64,000 nucleotides of DNA from Candidatus Gastranaerophilales bacterium. Its GTDB lineage: Bacteria > Cyanobacteriota > Vampirovibrionia > Gastranaerophilales > Gastranaerophilaceae. The stretch spans positions 62,001 through 126,000 of the forward strand of contig CALVBO010000005.1 in NCBI GenBank assembly GCA_944325835.1, given 5' to 3'. A program made the position numbers and the translations under genes. Below the pieces are notes generated by a model. That model was not told the origin of the DNA, made no database searches, and saw only the letters and a list, made by a program, of their open reading frames with translations. Each line of letters opens with the position of its first letter. Positions within the stretch are counted from its first letter, which is position 1. Of the stretch, positions 44,402 to 63,524 are shown piece after piece.

Positions 44402-44434
44402 ATTATTGTTATATCATAACTTGACTAAATAGAA

Positions 44435-44570
44435 AACATGGTACATAATGAAATAGGCAATAAGGCAATAAGAAAATAAGGCAATGAGTCGTAATGACCG
44501 AATGGAAAAAAGAAATAGTCCTATTGCCATGATGCCCTAATGACCTATTGCCTTATACCAGTAGGTTTGG
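44435..44570. repeat. GGCAATAAGGCAATAAG repeats, partly inverted, upstream of pseudopilin A
   Basis: Clustered copies of AGGCAATAAGGCAATAAG (about 44450-44485) are followed by inverse-oriented copies (TATTGCC at about 44522-44556), so the segment can fold on itself. The same motif stands at 48798-48830, before pseudopilin B. No gene is seen between the ribE start and 44663. Confidence 0.6.
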
Positions 44571-44662
44571 GCTTGCCAGCCCAACGCAAAACAAAGAAAG
44601 GACCGGCGGTCAAGCCGGTATCATAATTAGACAATGGCGAGAAGCCAGAAAGGATAGAAGAA

Positions 44663-44714
44663 ATGAAAAAACAGAGTGTAAGTATTTGCACGGGGGGGGG
44701 GGGGGCCGGCTGAG
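44663..44714 (+). other. Out-of-frame start region of pseudopilin A (phase-OFF leader)
   Basis: AAGGATAGAAGAA supplies a ribosome site for the ATG at 44663, which reads MKKQSVSICT into the G14 tract. With 14 G the frame ends at TGA a few codons later (44712-44714). With 13 or 16 G it would continue without a stop into the pseudopilin frame. The region matches 48849 upstream of pseudopilin B (GTAAGTATTTG-ACG before the tract). Confidence 0.7.
44692..44705 (+). repeat. Poly-G tract (G14), candidate phase-variation switch
   Basis: Fourteen consecutive G between the leader ATG and the pseudopilin coding frame. Followed by CCGGCTGAGCCGG. Slipped-strand changes of one base would alter the reading frame. 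Confidence 0.9.
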
Positions 44715-44735
44715 CCGGTTCTACAATCGGAAAGC

Positions 44736-45770
44736 GTGCTCACGGACAACGTAAAATTTTATTGTCACCCTGAACTTGATTCAGGGTCTGTCCAGCAAAG
44801 CGAGCTACCGGTAACGTTGGACAGATCCCGAACTAAATTCGGGATGACGAAAAACGCAGCGTTCACAATGGCAGAGATATTATTATCCCTGACGATAATC
44901 GGCGTGGTGGCAGCGATAACATTACCGAGCCTTACCGGTAACATCAACGAGCGAACATGGAACACGCAAAGAAAAGCGCTTTATGCAAGATTTTCACAGG
45001 CCGTTTCACTAATGGATTCAATGAACGGATATTCCGATGCCGAAACTTTTGTAACAGCAGGGCTTTCTAAAGTTTTGAAAATTAATAATGTCTGCGACTA
45101 CGACCACCTCGAAGATTGCGGCATAACCTCAAAACAGATTACCGATAACGCGGGCAATCCAACGTCAATGCCAAAACTCGTCAGTGAGTTGAACCCTAAA
45201 AACACAAGTATGTCATTTACCGATACTCACGGAACAACTCCTGTGGACTATTCTTACAGTAATGTCGATACCGAAGCTGCAGCGTTTGAAACACAGAACG
45301 GCGAAAGCATTTTGGCTTTTTATAACCCTTCTTGCAGCGCAGATATGCAGGAAACTGATTACTATGGCGCCAGCAAGGTTTGTGCGAACTTTGTGTATGA
45401 TCTCAACGGAAGCAAAGGTCCGAATGCAGTCGGTAAAGATATCGGGGTAATGACAGTTTTGTATCCGTCTGACAGCCTTGTTGTCGCGCCTATGCTGTAT
45501 CCACGAAATTCCGGCGTAGAAGTAGACTTTAATGAAGCTCCAAAGGCCTGTACGGCTTTAGATGCTGAGTATCGTGTGCCAAATATAGGTGAAGTTATTT
45601 CTATGTTTTATAATAGTAAATTACTTAATATTATTGAGAGTTCGCACTATTGGTCATCAAGCCGCTACGATTCATCTAAAGCATGGAATATGAGCGGAAC
45701 AACGGGAAGAATATTTCTTGAACCAATTAGCAGTACCGGATGGAAAAAGGTTAAATGCGTCAAGCGTTAA
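44736..45770 (+). CDS. Type IV pilin-like protein A, apparently phase-OFF
   Basis: The open frame encodes a pseudopilin: the cleavage site NAA|FTMAEILLSLTIIGVV, the shared mature N-terminus (NINERTWNTQRKALYAR) and a C-terminal DUF1566/lectin-like part (RVPNIGEV, YWSSSRYDSSKAW, KCVKR). The only start in frame near the 5' end is a GTG at 44736 with no proper ribosome site; the frame is open further back into the G14 tract. I infer that the real start is the ATG at 44663, one base out of frame in this sequence. The 85-base palindromic repeat (44764-44848) is translated within the leader (CHPELDSGS, KFGMT). Paralogues at 27096 and 48991. Confidence 0.8.
   Translation: MLTDNVKFYCHPELDSGSVQQSELPVTLDRSRTKFGMTKNAAFTMAEILLSLTIIGVVAAITLPSLTGNINERTWNTQRKALYARFSQAVSLMDSMNGYSDAETFVTAGLSKVLKINNVCDYDHLEDCGITSKQITDNAGNPTSMPKLVSELNPKNTSMSFTDTHGTTPVDYSYSNVDTEAAAFETQNGESILAFYNPSCSADMQETDYYGASKVCANFVYDLNGSKGPNAVGKDIGVMTVLYPSDSLVVAPMLYPRNSGVEVDFNEAPKACTALDAEYRVPNIGEVISMFYNSKLLNIIESSHYWSSSRYDSSKAWNMSGTTGRIFLEPISSTGWKKVKCVKR
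44764..44848 (+). repeat. 85-base palindromic element (copy A), translated in pseudopilin leader
   Basis: Ends GTCA/TGAC. Hairpin 1 is ACCCTGAA-CTTGA-TTCAGGGT, hairpin 2 is ATCCCGAA-CTAAA-TTCGGGAT, and CTGTCC pairs with GGACAG around the conserved centre AGCTACCGGTAACGTTGG. A second copy of exactly the same length stands at 48938-49022, with compensatory changes in hairpin 1. Confidence 0.85.
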
Positions 45771-45773
45771 CAC

Positions 45774-45802
45774 AAAGGCGGGGCAATGTTCCCGCCTTTT
45801 TA
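45774..45802 (+). terminator. Intrinsic terminator after pseudopilin A
   Basis: AAAGGCGGG / CCCGCCTTTTT stem-loop four bases after the stop codon. Confidence 0.85.
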
Positions 45803-48701: not shown

Positions 48702-48848
48702 GAAAAATACTACATAATCGCCGGTCAAGGCGGCCTCCTAATTAGACCCTTGCTATCGGTCTTGACTAAAATTGAAAAATAGTAAATAATAGAAGAGGCA
48801 ATAAGGCAATAAGAGAATAGGGCAATAAGCCCGGAAAGGATGGAAAGA

Positions 48849-48930
48849 ATGAAAAACCGAAATGTAAGTATTTGTACGGGGGGGGGGGGGGCGTGCCTTA
48901 CCCGCAAAATTAGGTATTGAGGACACTACG
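48849..48930 (+). other. Out-of-frame start region of pseudopilin B (phase-OFF leader)
   Basis: AAGGATGGAAAGA provides a ribosome site for the ATG at 48849, which reads MKNRNVSICT into a G14 tract and then hits TGA after the tract (48918-48920). With 13 or 16 G it would join the pseudopilin frame, which is open through this region. Same design and flanks as 44663. Confidence 0.7.
48878..48891 (+). repeat. Poly-G tract (G14), candidate phase-variation switch
   Basis: Fourteen G preceded by GTAAGTATTTGTAC, almost identical to the flank of the tract at 44692 (GTAAGTATTTGCAC). Separates the ATG at 48849 from the pseudopilin frame. Confidence 0.9.
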
Positions 48931-48937
48931 TCCCCAT

Positions 48938-49022
48938 GTCATGCTGAACTTGATTCAGCATCTGTCCCATGTCGCGAGCTACCGGTAACGTTGGACAGAT
49001 CCCGAAATAAATTCGGGATGAC
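48938..49022 (+). repeat. 85-base palindromic element (copy B), translated in pseudopilin leader
   Basis: Same length, ends (GTCA/TGAC) and centre (GAGCTACCGGTAACGTTGG) as copy A. Hairpin 1 is ATGCTGAA-CTTGA-TTCAGCAT versus ACCC/GGGT in copy A, so changes occur on both arms and pairing is kept. Hairpin 2 is ATCCCGAA-ATAAA-TTCGGGAT. Confidence 0.85.
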
Positions 49023-50064
49023 ATTAAAGGAAATGACCCTTGTATGTGCCTTTACCATGGCAGACCGGCTGAGCCGGATCCATAATGGGCTGGTCGGCTT
49101 ACGGTCAGCGTTTACCATGGCCGAAATATTATTATCCCTGACGATAATCGGCGTGGTGGCCGCGATAACGCTTCCGTCACTCACGGGCAACATTAATGAA
49201 CGCACGTGGAACACGCAGAGAAAAGCTCTTTATGCACGAATGAGTCAGGCAATTGCCCTGATGCCGTCTTTGAATGGTTATGGAAAACTTTCCGGTACTA
49301 TAAGCGATGACGGTTCACAAAGTGTTACAGAGGATACAGCCGCTGAGACGTTTGTTACTGACGGACTTTCAAAAGTCTTAAAAATCAATAATATTTGCGA
49401 TAATGAACATTTAAAAGATTGCGGTTTAGCTTCTAAAATAACCAATATTAAAGGAGATTCTCTTGATTTTCCATTTGATATGCAGACCTTAAATTCCGGA
49501 ATTTTAAGCCAAAATTTTGCGGGTCACCCTTCTTATAATCAGTTAAATACGAAAGCTGCGGCTTTTGAAACACAAAACGGAGAAAGTATTGCGGTTTATT
49601 ATAATCCGAATTGCAGTATTAATCAGGCTTTTACTAATTACTGGAATTATGTGCAGCCGTTATTTTGTGCAAATTTCCTGTATGATTTGAATGGAAGTAA
49701 AGGGCCGAATACTGTTGGTAAAGATTTAGGCTTCATTACAGTTTTTTATGCTGTTGACCCTGTGGTTGTAGCTCCGGTTCCGTTGATGCAAAATTCAGCG
49801 ACCGGTGTAAGCCAGATCGCAGCAGGGAAAGAGTGTTTGAAATTCTCGGATGACAGTCGTGTACCAAATAAAGAAGAATTAGCAGCAATGTATATTAATA
49901 AAGAGCTTATTGGCAACTGGGATGCCGGAGGTTTTTATCTTTCCTCTTCAACGGATATTTATGAGGGTGCACCGGCAGCCTGGACTGTAGATATTAACCA
50001 TGGCACTATGTATAAGACCAGTTCAAGAACTCAGGGACATGCTTTGAGGTGTATTAAACGTTAA
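48991..50064 (+). CDS. Type IV pilin-like protein B, apparently phase-OFF
   Basis: Encodes a pseudopilin with SA|FTMAEILLSLTIIGVV and the same mature N-terminus as the copies at 27 and 45 kb, then a unique middle and a DUF1566/lectin-like end (RVPNKEELAAM, FYLSSSTD, LRCIKR). In-frame starts are a TTG at 48991 and ATGs at 49018 and 49033, none with a convincing ribosome site; the frame stays open back to the G14 tract, so the ATG at 48849 is the probable true start once the tract is in register. The leader has a partial duplication (CAFTMAD, then SAFTMAE) separated by the repeat-encoded RLSRIHNGLVGLRS. Confidence 0.8.
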   Translation: MDRSRNKFGMTLKEMTLVCAFTMADRLSRIHNGLVGLRSAFTMAEILLSLTIIGVVAAITLPSLTGNINERTWNTQRKALYARMSQAIALMPSLNGYGKLSGTISDDGSQSVTEDTAAETFVTDGLSKVLKINNICDNEHLKDCGLASKITNIKGDSLDFPFDMQTLNSGILSQNFAGHPSYNQLNTKAAAFETQNGESIAVYYNPNCSINQAFTNYWNYVQPLFCANFLYDLNGSKGPNTVGKDLGFITVFYAVDPVVVAPVPLMQNSATGVSQIAAGKECLKFSDDSRVPNKEELAAMYINKELIGNWDAGGFYLSSSTDIYEGAPAAWTVDINHGTMYKTSSRTQGHALRCIKR

Positions 50065-59029: not shown

Positions 59030-59428
59030 ATGCGCAGACGTGATATCATAAGCGGTGTTCTAACAATAGTGCTACTGGCGTTGACCTGTAAGCATTGGCT
59101 TATATTTAAACCAATGCCTGTGAGTTTTCTTGTAAAGGGCAACGGTAGTTACACATTTACGGTTCAGTTAAATAAGAAGAATAATAACGAATTTAAAAAA
59201 ATAAAGCAGTGTACGATAAAGAAACATCTAACCGGTGGTTATGAGAAATGTGAATGCAAAATAGACAGGGTACGTTTCCCCAAACGCTTAAGACTCGTTG
59301 TAAACACTTCCGACGTATCTCCTATAGAAATAAAAGACATAACGCTGAAAAACGGGAAATATAAACTACCTTCAGTATCCGAATTTGCGTTGCATAACGC
59401 CCTACCGGGGGGGGGGGGGATATCTTAA
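59030..59428 (+). CDS. N-terminal membrane-anchor / beta-domain protein, upstream half of split SGNH protein C
   Basis: A 132-residue protein: basic start MRRRDIIS, one membrane helix (about 8-22), then a beta-rich domain (GNGSYTFTVQLNKK, CTIKKHLTGGYEKCECKI, RLRLVVNTSD, IEIKDITLKNG) and an end NALP-GGGG-IS created by a G13 tract. The stop overlaps the next ATG (TAATG). One more G (14) would remove the stop and fuse the frame to the next gene. The copy at 62115 is fused and a third copy starts at 63643. GAGGAGAG precedes the ATG. The domain family is not recognised. Confidence 0.8.
   Translation: MRRRDIISGVLTIVLLALTCKHWLIFKPMPVSFLVKGNGSYTFTVQLNKKNNNEFKKIKQCTIKKHLTGGYEKCECKIDRVRFPKRLRLVVNTSDVSPIEIKDITLKNGKYKLPSVSEFALHNALPGGGGIS
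59407..59419 (+). repeat. Poly-G tract (G13), candidate fusion switch
   Basis: Thirteen G just before the stop of the 59030 gene. With 13 G the two genes are separate; 14 or 11 G fuse them; 12 G ends at a TAG a few codons later. Confidence 0.9.
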
Positions 59429-60699
59429 TGCCGTCCTCTAGCACATTCACTCTGACTTATAACGAAAAATTGTCTGTTCGCTCCGGTATTAAATTTGAAG
59501 CAATGACGTTTATTATCATTGCGGTTTTAGGTTATTTACTGTCATATAAATTGACTTCATATCTTGCGGATTTTAAGGTTTTAAGTAATTATTCGCGTCT
59601 GGATATATTGTTTTTGCTGGTTTGTACCATACTGATGTTTCTCCCTATGAGTCATATTACAAATGATGTAAAATCAATTGCGGAAAACAGAGAGCTTGCA
59701 AAATGGGTGCCGCTTATCAACAAGGATAAAATAAATTATAATTTTGGAAAAGATTTTGATAACTGGTTTAATGACAGATATAATTTCAGACGGGATTATG
59801 TAAACTTATATGGCTGGTTGCGTTATTATTTCTCAAAATATTCTTGTATTAATAATGGGGTATTATTAAATAAACAAAATCACTGGTTTCTAATTCTGAA
59901 ATTTCATAAAGCAGCACAAAAATTATTTACGCCGGAACAACAAAGAGTTTTCTCTGAGGATATTAAAATTTTGAGTGAATATTGTGATAAAACTCGTAAG
60001 AAGCTGTATTTTGTGATTATTCCGGAAAAAGGAATCTTATATAAAGATGAAATTTATGAAGGGTTGATTTCAAATCCGTTGAAAGTTTATGATCCGGTGC
60101 CTGATATTATTAAAAATGTTTATACGGCATCTGGAGTTGAAATTTTATATCCATATGATGAATTGATGAAGGCTAAGAAAGAACACCTTGTATTTTTTAA
60201 GCACGATCATCATTTGAATGATGTTGGTTATTTAGTGGTATTCAATTCTTTGATTAAAAGAATGAATGCTGACGGAGTACCTTTCCCGCAATTGCGGGAG
60301 TGTGATTTCACTGTGCAGGAAACTAATAAGGCAAGAAGCGGCAGTCGCTTTTCAATGGGGTCCGGTTTCTGTACATTAAATATCTGGGACGAAACATTAT
60401 TAGATGAAACATATAAATTTTATACTCCAAAGTGTGAACTCCCGCTGCAGAAGAAAGTTCTTATTATAGGGGATTCTTATGTAAATATGACAAAACCTTT
60501 GTTTTTTAATATGTTTCAAACAGTGGATTCTATATTCGTTCGCGGGCTGGCTCAAGCAGAACGAAAAGATGTATTAAGAAAAAATTTGGATTTGTTGAAA
60601 AAGGCTGATGTCGTTGTTATGATGTTTTCTGCAATTCAACCTGAGATGCTGCTGGATATGGATTTTGATATATTGAGAGATGCTAGGAAGGAGCAATAA
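59428..60699 (+). CDS. AlgX/AlgJ-like SGNH O-acetyltransferase protein C
   Basis: A 423-residue protein. Two membrane helices near the N-terminus (FEAMTFIIIAVLGYLLSYKL; RLDILFLLVCTILMF) are followed by a periplasmic SGNH-hydrolase domain related to alginate O-acetyltransferases: ENRELAKW, FVIIPEKGILY, the D-H pair in KHDHHLNDVG (about 258-262), and the nucleophile block IIGDSYV (about 345). It should accept acetyl groups from the MBOAT partner and move them to a surface polysaccharide. Its start (ATG at 59428) overlaps the previous stop, so translation here depends on re-initiation unless the G-tract fuses the frames. Confidence 0.85.
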   Translation: MPSSSTFTLTYNEKLSVRSGIKFEAMTFIIIAVLGYLLSYKLTSYLADFKVLSNYSRLDILFLLVCTILMFLPMSHITNDVKSIAENRELAKWVPLINKDKINYNFGKDFDNWFNDRYNFRRDYVNLYGWLRYYFSKYSCINNGVLLNKQNHWFLILKFHKAAQKLFTPEQQRVFSEDIKILSEYCDKTRKKLYFVIIPEKGILYKDEIYEGLISNPLKVYDPVPDIIKNVYTASGVEILYPYDELMKAKKEHLVFFKHDHHLNDVGYLVVFNSLIKRMNADGVPFPQLRECDFTVQETNKARSGSRFSMGSGFCTLNIWDETLLDETYKFYTPKCELPLQKKVLIIGDSYVNMTKPLFFNMFQTVDSIFVRGLAQAERKDVLRKNLDLLKKADVVVMMFSAIQPEMLLDMDFDILRDARKEQ

Positions 60700-62102
60700 T
60701 GTTATTTTCATCAATGACTTTTGTTTACATGTTTTTACCGATTGTGTGTACACTTTATTTGATTTCTAAAAAAGAATTGCACAATCCGATTTTACTTATT
60801 GCAAGTATAATTTTTTATGCGTGGGGAGAACCTAAATATCTTGCTATTATGCTTCTTACAATACTTGTCAATTTTTATGGTGCAAAGATTGTTGAGAGGT
60901 TTAAGGAAACCGGCAGAAATGCTAAAATCCCTTTGGTTTTGACTATATGTATTAACCTCGGTTCCCTGATTTATTTTAAGTATTTTAACTTTTTAATTGA
61001 AAATATTAATGGAATTTTTCATTCGCACATTGATCTGCTTCATATTGTAATGCCTATTGGTATTTCATTTTATACATTTCAGGCGTTATCGTATGTGGTG
61101 GATGTTTATCGCGGGGAGTGTAAGGCGCAGCAGGATGTTTATAAACTTGCACTTTATATCTGCCTTTTCCCTCAATTAATCGCCGGTCCGATTGTTAAAT
61201 ACCATGATGTAGCGGATCAGATTGACAACCGTGATGTGAATTTTGAAAAAGTAGTCTTTGGGACAAAACGTTTTATTGTGGGTTTATCAAAGAAAATGCT
61301 TCTGGCAAATACAATGGGAGCTATTGCCGATAAAATTTTTGCGCAGGCACCGGATACCTTTTCTCCGTTGATTGCGTGGGTGGGGAGTATTGCGTATTCT
61401 TTGCAGTTGTTCTTTGATTTTTCAGGTTATTCCGATATGGCAATCGGTCTGGGGCTTATTTTCGGATTCCATTTCTTAGAAAACTTTAATTATCCTTATA
61501 TATCCAAATCTATTACGGAATTTTGGCGCAGATGGCATATTTCACTGTCCACCTGGTTTAAACAATATGTGTATATTTCGCTTGGCGGAAACAGATCCGG
61601 TAAATGGAAAACAATAAGAAATTTGGGGATAGTTTTTCTTTTGACAGGTATCTGGCATGGTGCGGCGTGGAATTTTGTTATCTGGGGCGCATGGAACGGA
61701 TTCTTTATAATTTTAGAAAAGCTAACCGGCTGGCACGAAGAAAAGCAACACCGTTGGCAAAGAGCTTTGCAGCACCTTTATACGATTCTTGTTTTTGTAA
61801 TAGGCTGGGTTATGTTCAGAGCCGATAATATGGCCTATGCGTGGACGTATATTAAAAATATGTTTGGTTTGGTAAAGGTCCACGATGTAATTTATGCACT
61901 CCCGTATTACGTTGATAATTTCGAGATTATAATTTTTGTGGCGGCATTTATTTGTTGTACGCCGTTATGCGGGAAAATGCTGCAGCAGGAAAATAAGATT
62001 ATAAAAGCTTTTGTAAATTTATGGCTTATAGTATTGTTGGTATTGTCAACAGCGACAATTGCTGCATCAACTTATAATCCGTTTATTTATTTCAGATTTT
62101 AG
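60699..62102 (+). CDS. MBOAT family O-acyltransferase (AlgI/DltB-like)
   Basis: A 467-residue polytopic membrane protein. MLFSSMTFVYMFLPIVCTLY, FYAWGEPKYLAIML, MPIGISFYTFQALSYVVDVY, FPQLIAGPIVKYHDVADQI, KSITEFWRRWHISLSTWFKQ and the active-site histidine in LTGIWHGAAWNFVIWG (about residue 320) are the AlgI pattern. It takes acetyl from a cytoplasmic donor across the membrane to SGNH partners for O-acetylation of an exopolysaccharide or LPS glycan. It shares a base with the preceding gene and lies between two SGNH genes. No G-tract inside. Confidence 0.95.
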   Translation: MLFSSMTFVYMFLPIVCTLYLISKKELHNPILLIASIIFYAWGEPKYLAIMLLTILVNFYGAKIVERFKETGRNAKIPLVLTICINLGSLIYFKYFNFLIENINGIFHSHIDLLHIVMPIGISFYTFQALSYVVDVYRGECKAQQDVYKLALYICLFPQLIAGPIVKYHDVADQIDNRDVNFEKVVFGTKRFIVGLSKKMLLANTMGAIADKIFAQAPDTFSPLIAWVGSIAYSLQLFFDFSGYSDMAIGLGLIFGFHFLENFNYPYISKSITEFWRRWHISLSTWFKQYVYISLGGNRSGKWKTIRNLGIVFLLTGIWHGAAWNFVIWGAWNGFFIILEKLTGWHEEKQHRWQRALQHLYTILVFVIGWVMFRADNMAYAWTYIKNMFGLVKVHDVIYALPYYVDNFEIIIFVAAFICCTPLCGKMLQQENKIIKAFVNLWLIVLLVLSTATIAASTYNPFIYFRF

Positions 62103-62114
62103 AGCGGGGGTAAG

Positions 62115-63524
62115 ATGCGTAAAAGAACTATAATAAGTATTATATTAGTTTTAGTAATCTTAGGTTTAAGTCATAATGCCTGGCTGACGATAAGGCCTAA
62201 GCCGCAAAGTACTGTGACCTCTATTCGGGGGGGGGGGGGGAGTTCCTCAACCGAAATAAACAGGCTTTTGACATTGCGCACCCGTGTGAGTATCAAATTT
62301 GATGCAATGATATTTATAATAATTGCTATCCTCGGATTTATGCTGTCATATAAATTAACCTCATATTTAGCGGATTTTAAAGTAGAGAAAAAATATTCGC
62401 GTCTGGATATATTGTTTTTAGCCGCCTGTGCAGTATTGATATTTCTCCCAATGAGTCATATCTCTGACGCAAAAAAATCCGAGGCCGAGAACCGTAATCT
62501 TGCGGTTTGGAAACCGTTTATTGATAAAAATGGCCGGATAAACTATAGCTTTGGGCGGGATTTTGACAGTTGGTTTAGTGATAGATTTAATATGCGTGAA
62601 GCTCTGGTTCAATACTATTATAAAGGTTTGGCAAATATAAGCTTTGATTTTGTGAGAACTAAAAATGGTTATTATTATAAGAAAAACGGCTGGATGTTTT
62701 ATTCCTCGGCGCTAAATGAGTTCGGACCTATTAATTATAAATTTTTTGATAAATATATAAAAAATCTGGTTCGTTTTAATCAATGGTTGGCAGAAAGGAA
62801 TATTAAATTATATGTGGTCATTATCCCCTCAAAGGAAGTTATTCGCAAAGAAGAAAATAAGTGCATAAATATAAATAGGCGTGAAAGAGCCGCTTATTTT
62901 ATGAATTATTTGAAAGAGAAGAATCTTGATTTGAATGTTACATATTATTATGACGATTTTAGACGTCTACGCGATAAAGATTCTGTCTTTTATAAAACTG
63001 ACCATCATATAACCGATTTTACCGTTTATGAACTTTATAAAGATATCATTAATAACATGGCTCGTGACTTTAAGGAATTATCGGTCGCGCCTGAAGATAA
63101 ATTTAATATTTATGAACGTACATTATGCAGATATAGTGAACACAGAACATTTGACGGCGGCTGTAACTATAAAAACGGAAATGTTCATGATGAAAAACTA
63201 TTGATGCCAAAATATACCTATTATGATTATATTCATCCTGAAGAGATAGCAATAGAGCAAAAAAATATTTTCCATTATATACACACTAATAAAAATAAAA
63301 AATATAAATTATTTTTGTTAGGTGATTCTTTTGAAGAAAGTCTTACTTACTTTTTGAATACAAGTTTTTATCAGATAGACAAACACAGACGAAGATTTAA
63401 TATTAAAAACAAAAAAGGTGAGCTTGCAGAGTATGAAAAAGCAATAACTGATTTTAAACCGGATATGGTATTATTATTGTTCTATAGTCCATCTCTAAGC
63501 TGGTTGGAAAAATTGTATAATTGA
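62115..63524 (+). CDS. AlgX/AlgJ-like SGNH O-acetyltransferase protein D, fused (phase-ON) form
   Basis: A 469-residue protein. The first 38 residues (MRKRTIISIILVLVILGLSH...) match the anchor of the 59030 gene but the beta-domain is missing, then GGGG encoded by a G14 tract leads into helices like those of protein C (KFDAMIFIIIAILGFMLSYK) and an SGNH domain with ENRNLAVW, VVIIPSKEVI, KTDHHITD (about 295) and LLGDSFEES (about 402-410). In this copy the frame is continuous through the tract. With 13 G it ends at TAA; with 15 G it ends at TGA. Preceded by a G-rich ribosome site, 12 bases after the MBOAT gene. Confidence 0.85.
   Translation: MRKRTIISIILVLVILGLSHNAWLTIRPKPQSTVTSIRGGGGSSSTEINRLLTLRTRVSIKFDAMIFIIIAILGFMLSYKLTSYLADFKVEKKYSRLDILFLAACAVLIFLPMSHISDAKKSEAENRNLAVWKPFIDKNGRINYSFGRDFDSWFSDRFNMREALVQYYYKGLANISFDFVRTKNGYYYKKNGWMFYSSALNEFGPINYKFFDKYIKNLVRFNQWLAERNIKLYVVIIPSKEVIRKEENKCININRRERAAYFMNYLKEKNLDLNVTYYYDDFRRLRDKDSVFYKTDHHITDFTVYELYKDIINNMARDFKELSVAPEDKFNIYERTLCRYSEHRTFDGGCNYKNGNVHDEKLLMPKYTYYDYIHPEEIAIEQKNIFHYIHTNKNKKYKLFLLGDSFEESLTYFLNTSFYQIDKHRRRFNIKNKKGELAEYEKAITDFKPDMVLLLFYSPSLSWLEKLYN
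62227..62240 (+). repeat. Poly-G tract (G14) inside the SGNH gene, in-frame
   Basis: Fourteen G encoding the four-glycine joint between anchor and second helix pair. Equivalent position to the G13 tract at 59407. Confidence 0.9.

Follow-up and report, generated by a model that had tools for sequence, protein, structure and literature searches.

Phase variation by homopolymeric tracts is best known from proteobacterial pathogens, and in Neisseria a poly-G tract lies in the signal-peptide region of pilC1 and pilC2. The Opa adhesins of Neisseria carry CTCTT repeats in the coding region of the leader peptide, and each paralogue is switched independently (PMC3960869). Campylobacter jejuni genomes hold 18–39 phase-variable genes each, of mixed function and mostly with tracts of 9–10 G, and in Campylobacter draft genomes the ON fraction was reported to be close to that of neutral drift (PMC6321876).

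Here we analyse a window of 64,000 nucleotides from a Candidatus Gastranaerophilales bacterium (contig CALVBO010000005.1), in which a run of 14 G separates a start codon from the frame of a type IV pilin-like protein. The Gastranaerophilales are cyanobacteria that do not photosynthesise, and this one lives in the gut. With high confidence, we take this tract to lie in a translated, later removed prepilin leader and to act as a slipped-strand ON/OFF switch, one of about 80 that precede pilin paralogues with lectin-like heads. We conclude that a simple-sequence contingency system, Opa-like in its logic, controls a large repertoire of lectin-headed pilins. The reading frames, the absence of stops from the leaders, the change of tract length between orthologues, the family of paralogues, the gene for a prepilin peptidase and the bias in register are all read from sequence, whereas slippage rate, expression, display, ligand binding and benefit to the cell are inferred.

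As with Opa, each member of a paralogous family of putative surface adhesins has its own frameshifting repeat in a leader that would be removed. Opa proteins are beta-barrels with a Sec signal, encoded by no more than about a dozen genes with pentamer repeats, whereas the family described here numbers about 80 genes for lectin-headed pilins, with class III prepilin leaders, tracts of a single base (G) and a register bias; the two have no sequence relation. The pilC genes resemble it in that expression of a type IV pilus adhesin is governed by poly-G in the leader, but there are only one or two of them and they encode a tip protein, in contrast to the large pilin family found here. The Campylobacter phasome likewise has many in-frame poly-G tracts with the gene bodies kept; it differs from the present genome, in which there are 94 tracts, one dominant family and a strong register bias. 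Set against the 18–39 phase-variable genes of C. jejuni, about 80 in one family is an unusually high number. In the open-access literature searched we found no paper joining Gastranaerophilales and phase variation, and the literature on Melainabacteria and pilins yielded general genome papers only. Among repertoires of switchable adhesins that belong to one family, this is possibly one of the largest. It occurs in gut commensals that are widespread and barely cultivated, and it offers a concrete account, readable from sequence, of the way in which such a commensal could diversify its attachment.

Results

The pilin cassette of the window

The elements recognised in the first pilin cassette lie between positions 44421 and 45799, on the forward strand. 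A promoter-like site matching the consensus (TTGACT-17-CATAAT, 44421–44449) lies inside a repeat shared with a second cassette (48761–48829), and a Shine-Dalgarno-like AAGGA (44650–44654) stands 8 nt 5′ of the ATG at 44663. The prepilin leader (MKKQSVSICT...) opens with the start codon and, after 29 nt (44663–44691), runs into the G14 tract (44692–44705), the putative switch. Beyond the tract, the remaining leader (44706–44861) is without stops in the pilin frame and includes, in frame, an interspersed palindromic repeat (44763–44848) with an 87% identical copy at 48937–49022. The mature pilin (FTMAEILLSLTIIGVVAA..., 44862–45770, stop included) follows a predicted prepilin cleavage site before F and ends in a C-type-lectin-like (Lcl-like) domain (45486–45767) that is hypervariable across paralogues; a terminator-like hairpin (45774–45799) lies 3′ of the gene.

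Read from the 3′ side of the tract, the pilin frame continues for 354 codons before a stop, compared to 15 codons and 1 codon in the two remaining frames. By frame arithmetic, the ATG and the pilin share one frame at 13 or 16 G only. At the assembled 14 G, a TGA ends translation after one codon, and the locus is therefore OFF, one base above the ON length (ON+1). The original prediction had described this ribosome site, start and frame structure, and all of it holds on re-reading, including the 13 or 16 G that would join start and pilin; its stop at 15 G is indeed TAA, although it falls about 47 nt further on and not about 60. The one other start that it named, GTG at 44736, is in the pilin frame and has no ribosome site, as it had said. 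Runs of 13 G numbered zero in dinucleotide-preserving shuffles of the window, against four tracts observed.

Tract length would set the reading frame by slipped-strand mispairing. At an ON length, ribosomes starting at the ATG would read four or five glycines and the rest of the leader and continue into the pilin, after which the prepilin peptidase would cut off the leader and the lectin-headed pilin would be displayed; at other lengths, translation would end just past the tract. With the genes switching independently, a population would hold many combinations of lectin heads. In the consensus sequence most pilins are OFF and about a fifth are ON.

A pilin stem with a lectin-like head

Profile matches, scored on the protein read through at the ON orthologue, show a weak type IV pilin signature (TIGR02532 at 16.3–16.5 bits, cut-off 16.3; PF07963 at 18.6, cut-off 21.2) and an Lcl_C match (PF07603 at 17.4 and 20.7 bits) below the curated cut-off of 34.9. 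The features that mark a type IV pilin-like protein are present: a prepilin cleavage and methylation motif with E5, which is invariant across 71 paralogues, a long N-terminal helix (residues 3–50 in the structure model) and a prepilin peptidase gene. The earlier name of pseudopilin A proved too specific, as the match to the major pseudopilin GspG (TIGR01710) reaches 18.9 bits against a cut-off of 88.85.

Modelled from 71 family members (pLDDT 89, pTM 0.85), the mature window pilin is predicted to have a long N-terminal helix, followed by a beta-rich middle part and, from about residue 209, a C-terminal domain with a C-type-lectin-like fold. Over residues ~190–302, the head matches the fold of the Legionella Lcl C-terminal domain (8q4e, Z 11.9) and of Bdellovibrio Bd2740 (8oks, Z 11.7), with a sequence identity of 15–19% to these domains. 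Identity among paralogues falls along the protein, from a median of 92% over residues 1–72, with residues 1–30 almost invariant, to 56% in the middle and to 36% and 28% in the two halves of the lectin-like domain. A conserved stem with a variable head is what a repertoire of predicted binding heads on a common stem would be expected to look like. To our knowledge, the Lcl and Bd2740 domains are not joined to a pilin stem in those proteins.

Scale of the tract family

The genome that contains the window (1.95 Mb, 99% complete) has 94 G tracts of at least 10, of which 93 are of at least 11, where none is expected by chance; most are 12–14 G. We took the DNA around all 94 for frame reading. Sixty-one stand directly 5′ of a mature pilin motif, and 58 of these have the same offset, a codon beginning with the first base after the tract. 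Around 19 further tracts follow the same leader but meet a contig end or decay. In all, about 80 tracts in this genome lie in prepilin leaders of one paralogous pilin family. The remaining dozen are intergenic or belong to other genes (AlgX-like, AAA+ ATPase, phage tail-fibre-like and a DUF2963 protein). Within this group, the tracts of the phage tail-fibre-like gene (Gp53-like_C) and of the AAA+ ATPase gene lie inside the genes (L143, L148).

Five of the six other species of the genus have 72–117 tracts and share this arrangement, and the sixth (G140) has none. At 96% completeness, G140 has no G tract of at least 11, and about 23 loose pilin candidates compared to 107–135 in its sisters; these per-genome pilin counts are loose, first-look numbers, with 11 candidates scored per genome. 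One or more tracts occur in 131 of the 191 genomes of the family, and counts are low in the rest of the class. Tracts lie in prepilin leaders again in at least six further genera, where the leader sequences are unrelated, and one genus uses poly-C: in genus g26 (G061; L211, L223, L235, L281–L298), a sense-strand poly-C directly precedes GLGGFTLAEV. Four genomes (G007, G012, G123, G155) represent genera in which loose pilin candidates exceed 100 and G tracts are almost absent, so that pilin expansion and poly-G control are separable. The scale of the family, its recurrence, the lectin-like head and the register bias described below all go beyond the original prediction.

Homopolymer lengths reported here derive from assemblies, which break at many tracts. 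Many contigs of the window's genome assembly (G000) stop at G tracts or shortly past a repeated AFTMA segment (L137, L161, L180, L186 and others). The number of pilins counted is thus a minimum. Assemblies of this group break at such sites, and the poly-G pilin family explains the bad assembly of these genomes at pilin genes.

Variation among relatives

The closest available relative (G047; MAG BRZ_KI__bin23, CALUQY01) is another species. Its orthologue of the window locus has the same ATG and the same 29 nt before the tract, which is G13 and hence ON, and the register differs in six of 11 orthologous pairs between the two genomes. Together with the stop-free leader and the same device before about 80 paralogues, the ON orthologue supports the reading of the original prediction, a phase-variable pilin that is OFF in this assembly, as the best explanation. 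As in contingency loci, a long homopolymer stands within a reading frame beyond chance expectation, a change in its length brings a start into register with a conserved coding frame or takes it out, and length and register differ between close relatives. A search of IMG/VR for strain-level variation gave no matches.

Some orthologous loci also differ in the distance from ATG to tract (30 versus 32 or 33 nt), from which leaders seem to have been exchanged between loci. Lost mismatch repair was considered as the source of the many tracts and rejected: MutS1 is intact in this genome and, to some degree, present in all 191 family members searched. Hypermutability is here assumed from tract length and not from a loss of mismatch repair.

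A bias towards one OFF register

Leaders form three classes by the distance from ATG to tract: 30 or 33 nt, for which 12 or 15 G are ON; 29 or 32 nt, with 13 or 16 G; and 48 or 49 nt, with 11 or 14 G. The modal tract lengths in the three classes are 13, 14 and 12, each one base above an ON length. Tract length depends on leader class (p ~1e-13) and register does not (p 0.08); ON+1 holds whatever the leader length, and the register itself therefore appears to be selected. By locus, the genus counts are 74 ON+1, 19 ON and 8 ON-1. Over all G-tract genera, ON+1 accounts for 110 of 144 loci (~76%), compared to a mean of 36% and a maximum of 51% in 10,000 trials in which lengths were redealt among loci; one vote for each cluster of similar leaders gives 75 ON+1, 15 ON and 5 ON-1. 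The distant genus g13 has 22 of 23 loci in ON+1 and none in ON, and the bias is equally strong among loci without a later start codon (32 of 40). It is absent from the poly-C genus g26 (4 of 11). In the window's genome, six of eight non-pilin tract genes are ON against 10 of 52 pilins (p 0.003), so that the bias comes neither from sequencing nor from a general frameshift.

Simple ON/OFF switching does not account for the excess of ON+1 over the other OFF register. Neutral slippage would spread OFF loci evenly, and their preference for ON+1 must therefore be selected or driven. We rejected a reversible mutation-selection equilibrium with a cost on ON alone, which by hand calculation is contradicted by the tract lengths counted in each leader class: in class 1 it would require 12 to outnumber 13 by more than 10:1, and in class 0 13 to outnumber 14 by 16:1, and the counts of class 2 run contrary to this, with 14 over 12 by 11:1. 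With the simple equilibrium contradicted, either tracts are renewed from outside, by leader exchange, or ON+1 has a value of its own, poised or leaky.

We give an even chance to the reading in which ON+1 is a poised OFF state, where selection in the sampled cells would disfavour expression of most pilins and contraction-biased slippage would pile tracts up above ON, a single deletion away from expression. That tracts cluster one base above the ON length in each leader class fits this, as does the scarcity of tracts two bases above. The same slippage bias, if reversible, cannot also make longer basins beat shorter ones, and a poised state would need non-equilibrium renewal of tracts, for example by exchange of leaders among paralogues; orthologous leaders do differ.

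It is less likely, though worth weighing, that ON+1 gives low expression through +1 ribosomal frameshifting or RNA polymerase slippage, with ON high, ON+1 low and ON-1 nil. The excess of ON+1 over ON-1 in the genus, the near-uniform g13 with no ON locus and the poor fit of an equilibrium with a cost on ON alone all speak for this, but most non-pilin tract genes are kept in frame, g26 has no bias, long G runs make a poor fixed frameshift site, and orthologues change register. Furthermore, three tRNA-Gly genes were found, all with ordinary anticodons, and those with CCC and UCC have 7-nt loops; no GGGG-reading suppressor tRNA-Gly was found among the tRNA genes read, a set that leaves out class II tRNAs and one partial match. 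Returning to the switch itself, we hold only tentatively, at somewhat less than an even chance, that ON+1 is a selected third state, either leaky or poised, which would make a three-position switch over about 80 lectin-headed pilins. The preference poses a testable question, namely why one OFF register is favoured.

Translation through the tract

A much less probable account places the start of translation 3′ of the tract, for example at GTG 44736, and makes the tract a neutral 5′ feature. The window locus does have this in-frame GTG, and an in-frame start codon of some kind lies between tract and pilin in 102 of 142 loci, but a Shine-Dalgarno-like site accompanies it in only 19 of the 102. 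The other 40 loci have no ATG, GTG or TTG in that interval, which in some is only two to ten codons long, and show the same registers; at these loci the tract must be translated. Pilin-frame leaders are without stops in 113 of 120 tract-pilin pairs of the genus: the pilin frame has 18 stops in 8,066 codons, all of them in seven loci, compared to 923 in 15,906 codons of the other frames. Between the tracts and the first possible starts lie 2,457 codons in all, where about 143 stops are expected by chance and yet 113 of the 120 loci have none. Stop-free leaders are selectable only where ribosomes enter through the tract. The stop-free leaders, the stop-free stretch before any start and the start-less loci are three arguments that indicate a translated tract. 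An internal ATG at -5 (ATGCAGGG) was also considered as the true start and rejected; it occurs in about 40% of type A leaders, and tract lengths are equal with and without it.

Past the tract, the leader is an in-frame, stop-free mosaic of interspersed palindromic repeats and reaches a length of up to 231 codons. Recognisable repeat elements, HPELDSGS...FGMT and others, occur in 23 of the 52 leaders of the window's genome (L111–L186), and the pilin leader seems to be a tolerated landing site for them. So long a mosaic would be tolerable if the prepilin peptidase removes the leader, and the genome has one prepilin peptidase gene, with PF01478 above its cut-off.

Least probable of all, and very unlikely, is that the tract lengths are artefacts of sequencing or assembly, or that the loci are decaying pseudogenes: many contigs do end at tracts, and a few of the terminal ones (L146, L164, L175, L181) are plainly junk, but artefacts would not track the reading frame over three leader classes nor spare the non-pilin genes, and the pilin bodies are intact, their stop-free leaders maintained and their first 30 residues conserved.

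Other G tracts in the window

A second pilin cassette lies 4.2 kb 3′ of the first, on the same strand. Its start and leader (48849–48877) have the same 29-nt length as those of the first cassette, its G14 tract (48878–48891) leaves this paralogue likewise out of frame, in ON+1, and its mature pilin (49111–50064) is 54% identical to the first.

The two remaining tracts of the window, also on the forward strand, belong to AlgX-like genes in the interval 59030–63524, which stand around an MBOAT acyltransferase gene. A G13 tract (59407–59419) lies between an ORF at 59030–59428 and an AlgX-like ORF at 59428–60699, at a junction where the two ORFs overlap as stop and start in TAATG; their frames join at 14 G, and tract length may here toggle between fused and split products. 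The other is a G14 tract (62227–62240) within the AlgX-like gene at 62115–63524, in frame and thus ON. These AlgX-like genes around the MBOAT gene are likely to represent phase-variable surface acylation. A third AlgX-like copy with a G14 tract lies just outside the window (L139).
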